64,000 nt of DNA from Fictibacillus phosphorivorans (GTDB taxonomy: Bacteria; Bacillota; Bacilli; Bacillales; Fictibacillaceae): contig NZ_CP015378.1 in the NCBI RefSeq assembly GCF_001629705.1, forward strand, positions 1,674,001-1,738,000. Direction: 5' to 3'. Below, piece by piece: positions 6,204 through 10,340 of this stretch. The position numbers were made by a program, and so were the translations under genes. The number at the start of each line of letters is the position of its first letter. Positions within the stretch are counted from its first letter, which is position 1. The notes beneath the pieces are model-generated. The model ran no database searches, was not told the origin of the DNA, and saw nothing but the letters and a program-made list of their open reading frames with translations.

Positions 6204-7217
6204 ATGGCAAAAGGCATGAAAGAACTATCTGGGAAAGAGAAAGCGGCAATCCTCGTTATCTCTTTAGGTCCTGATGTGGCAGCCCAAGTATATAAACATT
6301 TAAGTGAAGAAGAGATTGAGAGATTAACTCTTCAAATTTCACAAGTTAGAAAAGTAGACTCAACATTAAAAGATGAGATCATTACACAATTTCATCAGTT
6401 AGCTCTCGCGCAAGATTATATTACCCAAGGTGGAATAGGCTATGCGAAAACGGTACTTGAAAAAGCGGTTGGTAAAGACGAAGCGATGCAGATCATCAAT
6501 CGTTTAACATCTACTCTACAAGTGAGACCGTTTGACTTCGCTCGAAAAGCAGATCCGGGTCAGATATTAAACTTTATACAAAACGAGCACCCTCAAACGA
6601 TTGCTCTGATTCTGTCTTACTTGGATTCATCACAGGCTGGGCAGATCCTCTCTGAACTTCCACAAGAGATGCAAGCTGATATAGCGAAAAGGATCGCATT
6701 AATGGATCGAACATCTCCTGAAGTGATCAATGAAGTGGAACAAATCTTAGAAAGAAAGTTATCTGCTACCGTTACACAGGATTTCACACAAGCTGGTGGA
6801 GTAGAAGCCGTTGTCGAGGTGTTAAACGGTGTAGATCGCAGTACTGAACGAACGATCCTGGATGCGCTTGAAATCCAAGATCCTGAGTTAGCGGAAGAGA
6901 TCAAGAAAAGAATGTTTGTCTTTGAAGATATCGTCACTCTTGATAATCGTGCGATTCAAAGAGTTATTCGTGAAGTGCAGAACGAGGATCTACTCCTAGC
7001 TCTTCGTGCATCTAGCGAGGAAGTAAAAGAAGTGATGTTCAACAACATGTCACAGCGTATGGCTGAGAACTTTAAAGAAGAAATGGAGTTTATGGGTCCT
7101 GTTCGACTTCGTGATGTAGAGGAAGCTCAATCTAGAATCGTTGGAACCATCAGAAGACTTGAAGAAGCCGGAGAGCTCGTGATCGCTCGAGGCGGAGGAG
7201 ATGATGTGATTGTCTAA
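6204..7217 (+). CDS. fliG: Flagellar motor switch protein FliG
   Basis: This 337-residue C-ring protein generates torque with the MotA stator and reverses rotation with FliM/FliY. The N-terminal domain binds FliF. The middle domain carries the EHPQTIALIL motif at about residues 128-137, which contacts FliM. The C-terminal armadillo domain holds the charged torque helix (LRDVEEAQSRIVGTIRRLEE). The ribosome site is AAGGAGGT. Its 3' end overlaps the TTG start of fliH by 8 bases, so the two are probably translationally coupled. Confidence 0.97.
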   Translation: MAKGMKELSGKEKAAILVISLGPDVAAQVYKHLSEEEIERLTLQISQVRKVDSTLKDEIITQFHQLALAQDYITQGGIGYAKTVLEKAVGKDEAMQIINRLTSTLQVRPFDFARKADPGQILNFIQNEHPQTIALILSYLDSSQAGQILSELPQEMQADIAKRIALMDRTSPEVINEVEQILERKLSATVTQDFTQAGGVEAVVEVLNGVDRSTERTILDALEIQDPELAEEIKKRMFVFEDIVTLDNRAIQRVIREVQNEDLLLALRASSEEVKEVMFNNMSQRMAENFKEEMEFMGPVRLRDVEEAQSRIVGTIRRLEEAGELVIARGGGDDVIV

Positions 7218-8007
7218 AGTCATAAAATCTTTTCACGATCACAAAGAGAAGTCTGAAACAAGTGAAGTCATCATAGAAATTCAGTCACTTTCATTATTTA
7301 AAACGAAAAACCATGCAATTTTAGACGTAGAGGACGAAGAATCGAAGGTCATATCTATTAAAAATCAAGCGTATAACCTGCTTGAAGAAGCGAAAAGAGA
7401 GGCTGCTTCTATAACGAAGGAAGCAGAAGAATACAAAGAGGCACATATAAAAAGATTAGCTGAAGAAGAGACTCTCTGGAAAGAGAAGTTAGAAGCGGCT
7501 TATGAACAAGCGAAGCATGAAGGATATGACGCTGGCTTTCAAAATGGTCTAGAGCAAGGGCACGATAGCTGGGCTTCACAATTAAATGAAGTAAAGAGCT
7601 TTATGGATACATTAAGAAACGATTACCATAACATCTTAAGTGAAGCAGAGCCACAGATGACCATTCTTGCCATGGCAGCCGCTGAAAAAATCTTAGGACA
7701 AACGTTACGAGATGCTCCTGAAACGTGGATTTCTATCGTAAAGAAACTTGTTAAAGAAGCTCGAGAGTTTGAAGAGATTAAACTTTATGTTCCTCCACAT
7801 TGGTTTGAACTTACTCAAAACTATCGTGAAGAACTAAAGAACATACTTCAATCGACAGCGACTCTTTTCATCTATCCAGATGAGAACTTGACCGAGAATG
7901 GAGCAATAATCGAGTTTCCTTTTGGAAAGATCGATGCAACACTTGACGTTCAGCTTAAAGAGCTTCGTGAAAAATTGCTAGAACAACTTGAGGTGACAGA
8001 TCAATGA
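7210..8007 (+). CDS. fliH: Flagellar assembly protein FliH, export ATPase regulator
   Basis: This 265-residue protein binds the FliI ATPase, restrains it and docks it at the C-ring. A long charged coiled coil (about residues 50-140; KREAASITKEAEEYKEAH and following) leads into the C-terminal FliH domain (MTILAMAAAEKILGQTLRDA). The start is TTG at 7210, inside the end of fliG, with GGAGGAG at 7194-7200 nine bases upstream. The stop overlaps the fliI ATG (ATGA). Confidence 0.94.
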   Translation: MSKVIKSFHDHKEKSETSEVIIEIQSLSLFKTKNHAILDVEDEESKVISIKNQAYNLLEEAKREAASITKEAEEYKEAHIKRLAEEETLWKEKLEAAYEQAKHEGYDAGFQNGLEQGHDSWASQLNEVKSFMDTLRNDYHNILSEAEPQMTILAMAAAEKILGQTLRDAPETWISIVKKLVKEAREFEEIKLYVPPHWFELTQNYREELKNILQSTATLFIYPDENLTENGAIIEFPFGKIDATLDVQLKELREKLLEQLEVTDQ

Positions 8008-9320
8008 ACGTGGAACGCATGATCGATTCCCTTCAATCAATCGATTCCTATAAAAGATATGGAAAAGTGATTCGGGTTGTTGGGCTAATGATCGAATCTA
8101 AAGGACCAAAAACATCGATCGGTGAGGTCTGTTATATCCACATGGGGAACAATAAGCAAAAAATCAAAGCAGAAGTAGTCGGTTTTCAGGAAGAGAATGT
8201 TTTGTTGATGCCGTTTACGTATGTAAAGCATATTGCAGTTGGCAGTTTGGTAGAAGCGACACATCGTGCGCTAGAAATAAAGGTTGGGCCTTCTTTAATC
8301 GGAAAAGTACTTGATGGTATGGGTGTTCCATTGGATGGCTCTCCTCTCCCTCGCGGATTGTTTCGTTATCCGTCAGAGAACGAGCCACCGAATCCAATGG
8401 AAAGGCCAAGAATTCATGAAAGTATTCAGCTCGGTATACGGTCGATCGATAGTTTGCTAACGGTGGGAAAAGGCCAGCGGGTAGGTATTTTTGCTGGGAG
8501 TGGTGTAGGTAAGAGTACGCTGCTCGGTATGGTGGCACGTAATTCGACAGCTGATCTTAATGTGATCGCACTAATCGGTGAACGAGGACGCGAAGTTCTT
8601 GACTTTATTGAGCGAGATCTAGGTGAAGAAGGGTTGAAGCGATCTATTGTAATCGTTGCAACTTCCGATCAACCTGCATTAATGCGGATAAAAGGTGCTT
8701 TGACGGCAACGAGCATCGCTGAATATTTTCGAGATCAGGGTAAGAACGTCATGTTGATGATGGATTCTGTAACACGCGTGGCTATGGCACAACGTGAAAT
8801 CGGTCTAGCTGTTGGAGAGCCACCAACAACAAAGGGATACACCCCTAGCGTTTTTGCGGTTCTTCCAAAATTGTTAGAGCGTTCTGGAACGAATAAGAAC
8901 GGAACGATTACAGCCTTTTATACCGTTTTAGTCGATGGAGACGATTTTAACGAACCAATCTCAGATACAGTTCGAGGTATTCTGGATGGACATTTTATCT
9001 TAGATCGAAAATTAGCCAATAAAGGGCAGTTTCCTGCTGTTAATATTCTAAAGAGTATAAGCAGGGTGATGAATGATATCGTTCCGAAAGAGCATCGGCA
9101 AGCTGCTGAACGTCTTCGAGAACTTCTTTCATCTTATGTGGAAGCAGAGGACTTGATCAGCATTGGCGCATACAAAAGGGGTTCTTCTAAATCAGTGGAT
9201 GAAGCCATTCAGATGTACCCTAACATTCTGGCGTTTCTTAAACAGCAAGTAGATGAAGATGTTAGTTATGAAGAAGCTCTTCAGCGGCTGTTGATTGAAT
9301 TTGGGAAGGATGAACGTTGA
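8004..9320 (+). CDS. fliI: Flagellum-specific ATP synthase FliI (export ATPase)
   Basis: This 438-residue F1-beta-like ATPase energises flagellar type III export and has the same length as B. subtilis FliI. Walker A is FAGSGVGKST at about residues 163-172. GERGREVLDFIE and the Walker B region VMLMMDSVTR follow. The N-terminal beta-barrel and C-terminal helical domain are in the usual order. It overlaps fliH by 4 bases at its start and the fliJ start at its end. Confidence 0.97.
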   Translation: MNVERMIDSLQSIDSYKRYGKVIRVVGLMIESKGPKTSIGEVCYIHMGNNKQKIKAEVVGFQEENVLLMPFTYVKHIAVGSLVEATHRALEIKVGPSLIGKVLDGMGVPLDGSPLPRGLFRYPSENEPPNPMERPRIHESIQLGIRSIDSLLTVGKGQRVGIFAGSGVGKSTLLGMVARNSTADLNVIALIGERGREVLDFIERDLGEEGLKRSIVIVATSDQPALMRIKGALTATSIAEYFRDQGKNVMLMMDSVTRVAMAQREIGLAVGEPPTTKGYTPSVFAVLPKLLERSGTNKNGTITAFYTVLVDGDDFNEPISDTVRGILDGHFILDRKLANKGQFPAVNILKSISRVMNDIVPKEHRQAAERLRELLSSYVEAEDLISIGAYKRGSSKSVDEAIQMYPNILAFLKQQVDEDVSYEEALQRLLIEFGKDER

Positions 9321-9757
9321 TGTCATTTCATTTTTCTATGGAAAAGGTATTGTCTGTTAAACAAAAAGAAAAAGAATCGATTGAACAAGAATTAGGAGAA
9401 GCTGTACAAGCATTTGAGAGCATAGCAGAAGAGATATACAGCCTCCTAAAAAGGAAAGAAGACATCGAGAACCAATCGAACTATACCTATCAACAAAGAA
9501 TCGTAGTAAACGATCTACAGAATACACAGCGTTTTCTGTTATCGATGACGAACAAGATCAAAGAATTACAGCCGCTGTTGCAAAGAGCAAGATAGAGAAT
9601 GCAAGTTATTCAGCAAAGATTATTGCAGCAGACCATTGAAGTGAAAAAATACGAAAAGCTAAAAGAAAGACAGCTCACCGCATATAGAGTGGAAGTTGCT
9701 TCTTATGAAAGTAAGCAGAACGACGAATTTTCGGTATTGCGTTTTGCGAAGTCGTAA
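9320..9757 (+). pseudogene. fliJ: fliJ interrupted by an in-frame TAG (flagellar export chaperone)
   Basis: From ATG 9320 the frame reads MSFHFSMEKVLSVKQKEKES and stops at TAG 9593-9595 after 91 residues. Read through, the same frame continues without another stop to TAA 9755-9757, giving 145 codons before the stop against 147 residues in B. subtilis FliJ. The downstream part (MQVIQQ, then IEVKKYEKLKERQ) is recognisably FliJ and stays in frame, so a single substitution is the only visible defect. FliJ is a coiled-coil chaperone and FliI stalk of the export apparatus; the C-terminal half would be lost. ATG 9599, two codons after the TAG, could restart a 52-residue fragment. Sequencing error is the main alternative. 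Confidence 0.85.
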
Positions 9758-9773
9758 AAAATCAGGTGATCAG

Positions 9774-10340
9774 ATGAAACAGAACGAAAAATCTAGCAAA
9801 ATGGTTTGGTTTTTATTAGTAGTATTCGTACCTTTCGTTTTTGCACTGACTGTTTTCGGAATCGTCCTTTCTTTTATGGGAGTAAACGTATGGGAAGAAG
9901 CAAAAAGCACGGGTAAGAACATACCCATTATCAAAAATGTTTTAAGCGAGAAAACGGAAGTAGCTGTTACAAACAATGTTCAAGAGAAGCAATGGAAATC
10001 AAAGTTCGATGAGCAAGAAGATTACATTAAAGTACTATCCGCTGATCTTCAAAAGAAAGAAAAAGAAGTTACCGATCTTAAAAGCAATATTGCCCTCTTA
10101 GAAAAGCAAGTTGAAGATGCAGAAACAACTGTAAAAGAAGAAGAGAATGAACAAGTAAAAAAGATTTATGAAGCCATGTCAGCGAAAGATGCTGCAGCTG
10201 TTATGTCAGAAATGAACAATAATCAGATCATGGGCATCTTGATGCTTTTACAGTCTGAAACCCAAGCTGCGATCCTTGCCAAGCTAGATGCGAAACGCGC
10301 GGCAGAGCTTACCGTACTAATGGCAAACAAAACGCTATAA
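9774..10340 (+). CDS. ylxF: YlxF/MotE-like membrane protein of the flagellar operon
   Basis: This 188-residue protein has one N-terminal transmembrane segment (about residues 11-34, VWFLLVVFVPFVFALTVF). A long extracytoplasmic coiled coil follows (EDYIKVLSADLQKKEKEV and onward), then a C-terminal MgtE-N-like bundle (AMSAKDAAAVMSEMNNNQ, AAILAKLDAKRAAEL). Position between fliJ and fliK matches B. subtilis ylxF. The MotE family is linked to stator assembly, but the role in Bacillus is not settled. ATG 9774 follows AGGTGATC; a longer frame from 9696 overlaps fliJ and lacks a ribosome site. Confidence 0.85.
   Translation: MKQNEKSSKMVWFLLVVFVPFVFALTVFGIVLSFMGVNVWEEAKSTGKNIPIIKNVLSEKTEVAVTNNVQEKQWKSKFDEQEDYIKVLSADLQKKEKEVTDLKSNIALLEKQVEDAETTVKEEENEQVKKIYEAMSAKDAAAVMSEMNNNQIMGILMLLQSETQAAILAKLDAKRAAELTVLMANKTL

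Follow-up and report, generated by a model that had tools for sequence, protein, structure and literature searches.

The fliJ gene of this Fictibacillus genome is interrupted by an in-frame TAG, which is most probably a very recent, strain-private nonsense mutation of a single base that would leave a FliJ of 91 residues and impair flagellar export. The window (the whole stretch of DNA analysed, 64,000 nucleotides) covers positions 1674001-1738000 of a single-contig genome of 4,230,665 bases, a Fictibacillus whose nearest named relatives belong to that genus. The case looks like an ordinary loss of function, or else a base error, and not like a new mechanism. No paper describing an amber fliJ in Fictibacillus was present among the literature matches listed. 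If real, the mutation would make the strain a natural fliJ mutant, intact in other respects, in a Gram-positive that is not a Bacillus, and the degree to which its flagellar export depends on FliJ could be studied with it. It would also serve as a warning for annotation that a near-complete set of flagellar genes does not prove a strain to be motile.

The interrupted fliJ frame

The fliJ reading frame extends from the ATG at 9320-9322, where fliI ends (9320), to the TAA at 9755-9757, and is open throughout save for the TAG at 9593-9595, as the initial annotation had described; the TAG was reproduced here as codon 92. The 145 codons quoted there hold as the length of the frame, a figure that includes the TAG itself, the sense codons being 144 in number. 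For comparison with chance, these 144 codons allow 1296 single-base changes, 88 of which create a stop. The gene order (fliH 7210, fliI 8004, fliJ 9320) places fliJ directly behind fliI in the flagellar operon, with the following features:

7210..8007, + strand: fliH, FliI partner, open (Pfam FliH, 49.0 bits; unflagged in the comparison with the sister genome)
8004..9320, + strand: fliI, flagellar export ATPase, open (Pfam; 98% identical to the sister copy)
9320..9595, + strand: fliJ front piece, 91 codons followed by TAG; predicted helix 1 plus the initial third of helix 2
9593..9595, + strand: in-frame TAG, codon 92 of fliJ; present in the window genome only, among those examined
9599..9757, + strand: fliJ rear piece, 52 amino acids; contains both invariant residues; ribosome-binding site no stronger than background
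9774..10340, + strand: next gene of the operon, coiled-coil (Pfam MgtE_N, 27.1 bits against a cut-off of 25.9)

The last of these genes has an SD of its own (-9.1 kcal/mol at ATG 9774) and shares 94.7% identity with its sister counterpart over 188 residues.

Both pieces of the window fliJ match the FliJ family (PF02050) over its profile, the front piece alone scoring 31.0 bits over profile positions 1-72 and the rear piece alone 38.6 bits over positions 76-123, each against a cut-off of 28.4, while the whole locus reaches 74.6 bits when the stop is read through; FliJ sequence thus persists behind the TAG, as had been noted at the outset. The likeness to the family extends to the position behind fliI and to the two long helices predicted for an intact homologue, P0004. 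The difference is that FliJ is one continuous two-helix chain, whereas the window frame terminates at codon 92, partway through helix 2. A profile search of the genome returned a single FliJ locus above the Pfam cut-off, leaving no second copy over that cut-off that could compensate.

Distribution and age of the stop

The closest relative is F. nanhaiensis DSM 23009 (the sister genome hereafter), with 94.5% identity across the 64 kb. A genus set of 34 loci was assembled, 33 of which carry fliJ (L100 is the exception); one is the window itself, and the remaining 32 derive from 20 distinct genomes, 12 of them occurring twice. In all 32 the fliJ frame is open over 144-145 codons. The comparison with relatives that the initial annotation had called for therefore gave a clear outcome, codon 92 being a sense codon and fliJ full-length in 20/20 other Fictibacillus genomes examined. 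When the front piece was used as the query against proteins, 78 homologues were recovered, among which the only short one was the window's own product (91 amino acids, one contig); the other 77 measure 136-151 residues and without exception carry the identical residue at the position of codon 92. Across the order, 376 of the 397 genomes searched gave a match, and among the matches listed (the best 150, counted by hand) an internal stop in fliJ was present in that of the window alone. A stop at the same place in relatives, which would be a mark of recoding, was thus found in 0/20 genomes of the genus and 0/77 homologues.

The nearest homologue is P0004, available as a protein sequence only, which agrees with the window at 90/91 residues before the stop and at 53/53 behind it. 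It is encoded on a contig of 2.23 Mb and the window product on one of 4.23 Mb. The two have Y57 in common, where the six nearest genomes have F; on the strength of this shared residue, P0004 and the window probably belong to the same species, with the stop being younger than their split. When the window fliJ is compared with that of the sister genome, the stop aside, 12 codons differ, four of them nonsynonymously. One of these four, Y57, arose in the window lineage and, since P0004 has it too, predates the stop; another belongs to the sister lineage, and two in the rear half have no clear lineage. The half of fliJ behind the stop displays no decay.

The genes around fliJ were examined for relaxed selection in 36 ORFs at 3365-33482, which were picked mechanically and include a few that overlap. 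This region is identified as the flagellar and chemotaxis operon by names given earlier and by gene order, with Pfam applied at 7210-10340. With codons left out where fewer than three outgroups were available or more than one outgroup dissented, the window lineage was found to have accumulated 58 nonsynonymous and 323 synonymous changes, and the sister lineage 59 and 296, over 7587 codons. These 36 ORFs give no sign of relaxed selection, so that motility was probably kept until very recently; a long-standing loss of motility is disfavoured by the same counts. No other ORF of the flagellar operon is split in the window relative to the sister genome, and two flagellin-family genes elsewhere in the genome are open over 294 and 298 codons, in agreement with the earlier remark that the remaining flagellar genes look intact.

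The marks of a recent nonsense mutant are accordingly present, namely a private stop, intact copies in close relatives, and an undecayed rear half, and the recent origin suggested by the initial annotation is upheld. In-frame stops have been reported by Belinky et al. (2021, PMC7918605) to be widespread and short-lived in bacteria. The window resembles the cases described there in that a conserved gene is affected and few changes surround the stop, as would be the case for a polymorphism on the population scale; it differs in that the cases trusted in that report are common to at least two species, while the stop in the window occurs in a single genome. Okada et al. (2023, PMC10654082) described how long-term cultures yield motility-defective variants through single hits in flagella-related genes. 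Their variants likewise have one flagella-related gene hit and the rest intact, but they come from another organism, and fliJ is outside the list of genes in the abstract of that study.

Expected effect on FliJ and flagellar export

A model of the intact P0004, built from a 40-sequence alignment, contains helices at residues 8-58 and 63-144 (mean pLDDT 90, pTM 0.60) and would place residue 92 some 30 residues into helix 2, away from the turn at 59-62. Both invariant columns of the alignment (P0004 130 and 135) and four of the seven nearly invariant ones are situated behind the stop. In Salmonella, FliJ is described as an antiparallel coiled coil forming the central stalk in the FliI ring, with an FlhA-binding tip that involves residues 38-83 (PMC9114704), and in cells without FliJ the export gate is reported to remain inactive (PMC13233425). 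Mapped by position onto Salmonella FliJ, the front piece would keep the tip and lose the part that completes the stalk; this mapping is approximate because P0004 aligns weakly in sequence with Salmonella FliJ (3AJW; E 0.09).

The proposed course of events is that a single-base change created the TAG in the sole fliJ gene of the genome, and that translation would end at codon 92, yielding a fragment of 91 residues with helix 1 and the beginning of helix 2. The 53 residues lost would be the portion of helix 2 that is expected to fold against helix 1 and make up the stalk inside the ring of FliI. Without it, the fragment would probably leave FliI uncoupled from the export gate; few flagellar subunits would be exported, and swimming would be poor or absent. 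Loss of FliJ function and of motility is thus expected by analogy with Salmonella, while the TAG base itself is presumed to be real. The possibility of changed export proteins bypassing FliJ was also considered and nothing pointing to one was found in the eight export genes compared (named by position), in which changes private to the window at sites where relatives agree are few, with none in FlhA and one in FlhB, at residue 67.

Alternative explanations

The foremost alternative is that the TAG is an error in the published assembly and that fliJ is intact in the strain itself. The restriction of the stop to one genome is what such an error would produce, and the ORFs around fliJ do look fully selected; all the same, we consider this explanation improbable. 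The codon 92 site is outside any homopolymer run, the difference is a substitution, and no further mid-gene stop relative to the nearest sister was detected among 235 ORFs in 264 kb. Nine of the 235 ORFs were flagged in that comparison, in which the sister stretches overlap by approximately 16 kb and a few ORFs are counted twice, and fliJ alone had a stop in mid-gene. The other eight can be put down to ordinary causes or to small hypothetical frames: four contain stops in over-extended N-termini, one is an antisense ORF with a stop close to its end, one is at the edge of a stretch, one lies over a tRNA-SeC gene, and one is a small hypothetical ORF. Alignment breaks occur in two of the nine, the ORF over the tRNA-SeC gene and the small hypothetical ORF, and the latter may hold a frameshift near its end. 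A single mid-gene stop in 264 kb argues for a fairly clean assembly.

The remaining two alternatives, restart and read-through, had been listed as options in the initial annotation, and neither gained positive support. According to the first, translation restarts at ATG 9599, and pieces of 91 and 52 residues form a working two-chain FliJ. Were it true, the window would encode a natural split stalk in a rotary export ATPase, made by termination-reinitiation. The ATG lies just three bases past the stop (TAG-AGA-ATG) and heads an open frame of 52 amino acids up to the TAA at 9757, the rear piece by itself is recognised by the Pfam profile, as given above, and the two-helix fold, modelled for P0004 and described as a coiled coil in Salmonella (PMC9114704), could in principle be rebuilt from two chains. 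Some restart is therefore conceivable, owing to the closeness of the ATG, but a functional two-chain protein is very improbable. The SD at ATG 9599 amounts to -2.9 kcal/mol, against -10.4 at the start of fliJ itself; of the 989 internal ATGs that the window contains, 56.9% have an SD at least as good, and every one of the 58 gene starts compared has a stronger one, although the gene starts are flattered by taking the best start within 120 bases. All these energies were computed against an assumed anti-SD sequence. Moreover, ATG 9599 is the usual internal methionine of intact relatives, the cut is predicted to fall inside helix 2 and not in the 59-62 turn, and a split fliJ was seen neither in any other genome examined nor among the order-wide matches listed (best 150).

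The second supposes that a suppressor tRNA, pyrrolysine insertion, or programmed read-through that keeps FliJ low lets translation pass the TAG, and is likewise very improbable. Both halves of fliJ do look conserved, and the report cited above (PMC7918605) argued for read-through of many in-frame stops where the bacterial gene is under purifying selection. Against this stands the absence of the stop from every relative examined. No CTA anticodon was present among the 62 tRNA genes read (150 of 289 tRNA candidates were scored), and no PylS exceeded the cut-off, three weak matches being far below it. Behind the stop, neither an RNA structure (z 0.52; 138 of 200 shuffled sequences gave an equally good or better fold) nor an Rfam match up to E 1 was found. 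The TAG is also an ordinary terminator in this genome, ending 30 of the 221 ORFs of 100 amino acids or more that were picked in 264 kb, so that a general reading as sense would be costly; the six genes cited earlier as ending in it (flgC, fliE, fliP, flhG, swrD, and mlpA, by the names then given) all do. Reassignment, a suppressor tRNA, and pyrrolysine are consequently disfavoured within the share of tRNA candidates scored, as the initial annotation had anticipated for general reassignment.

A separate observation concerns TGA. The tRNA-SeC gene mentioned above, one of the 62 tRNA genes read, with anticodon tca (which reads TGA), is located 59 kb downstream of the window, at L165:19454-19550 (minus strand), and is absent from the 61 matches to the Rfam tRNA family. 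With this gene in the chromosome, the genome may make selenoproteins. An ORF approximately 5 kb before the window was considered as a selenoprotein candidate and rejected, its TGA being residue 7, within a stretch that resembles an SD ahead of the true start.

fliJ starts and locations in other genomes

An apparently unusual fliJ start was encountered in the genus of Pseudalkalibacillus spartinae, where FliJ is present in 13/14 genomes and all 13 lack an ATG, GTG, or TTG either upstream of the expected start or at that position. The loci concerned are L183, L184, and L186-L196, together with L026, L027, L029, L030, L032, L033, and L043. The codon roughly in line with the GTG and TTG starts of fliJ in Planococcaceae is ATC in 12 genomes and ATT in one, the ATT-type gene being two codons shorter. 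The SD before the ATC in the 12 ranges from -10.5 to -10.7, and that of the ATT case was measured two codons off. Judged from these alignments, AUC or AUU appears to be the genus-wide start codon of fliJ in Pseudalkalibacillus, and perhaps limits the dose of FliJ. The stoichiometry described for FliJ is one per six FliI (PMC9114704), and so low a demand would be in keeping with a weak start. The phrase AUC or AUU start codon was absent among the literature matches listed, and this start may be worth more than the stop in the window.

Three loci of Planococcus/Planomicrobium (L042, L046, and L049) have CTG at the start position of fliJ, where close relatives have TTG or GTG; an upstream in-frame TTG is an alternative start for these genes. 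Lastly, a sequence of 628,214 bases entered as a Rossellomorea sp. AcN35-11 plasmid (L020) carries a fliI of 70% identity, directly followed by an ORF of 153 amino acids that is a candidate for fliJ by its place, which would put flagellar export genes on a plasmid.
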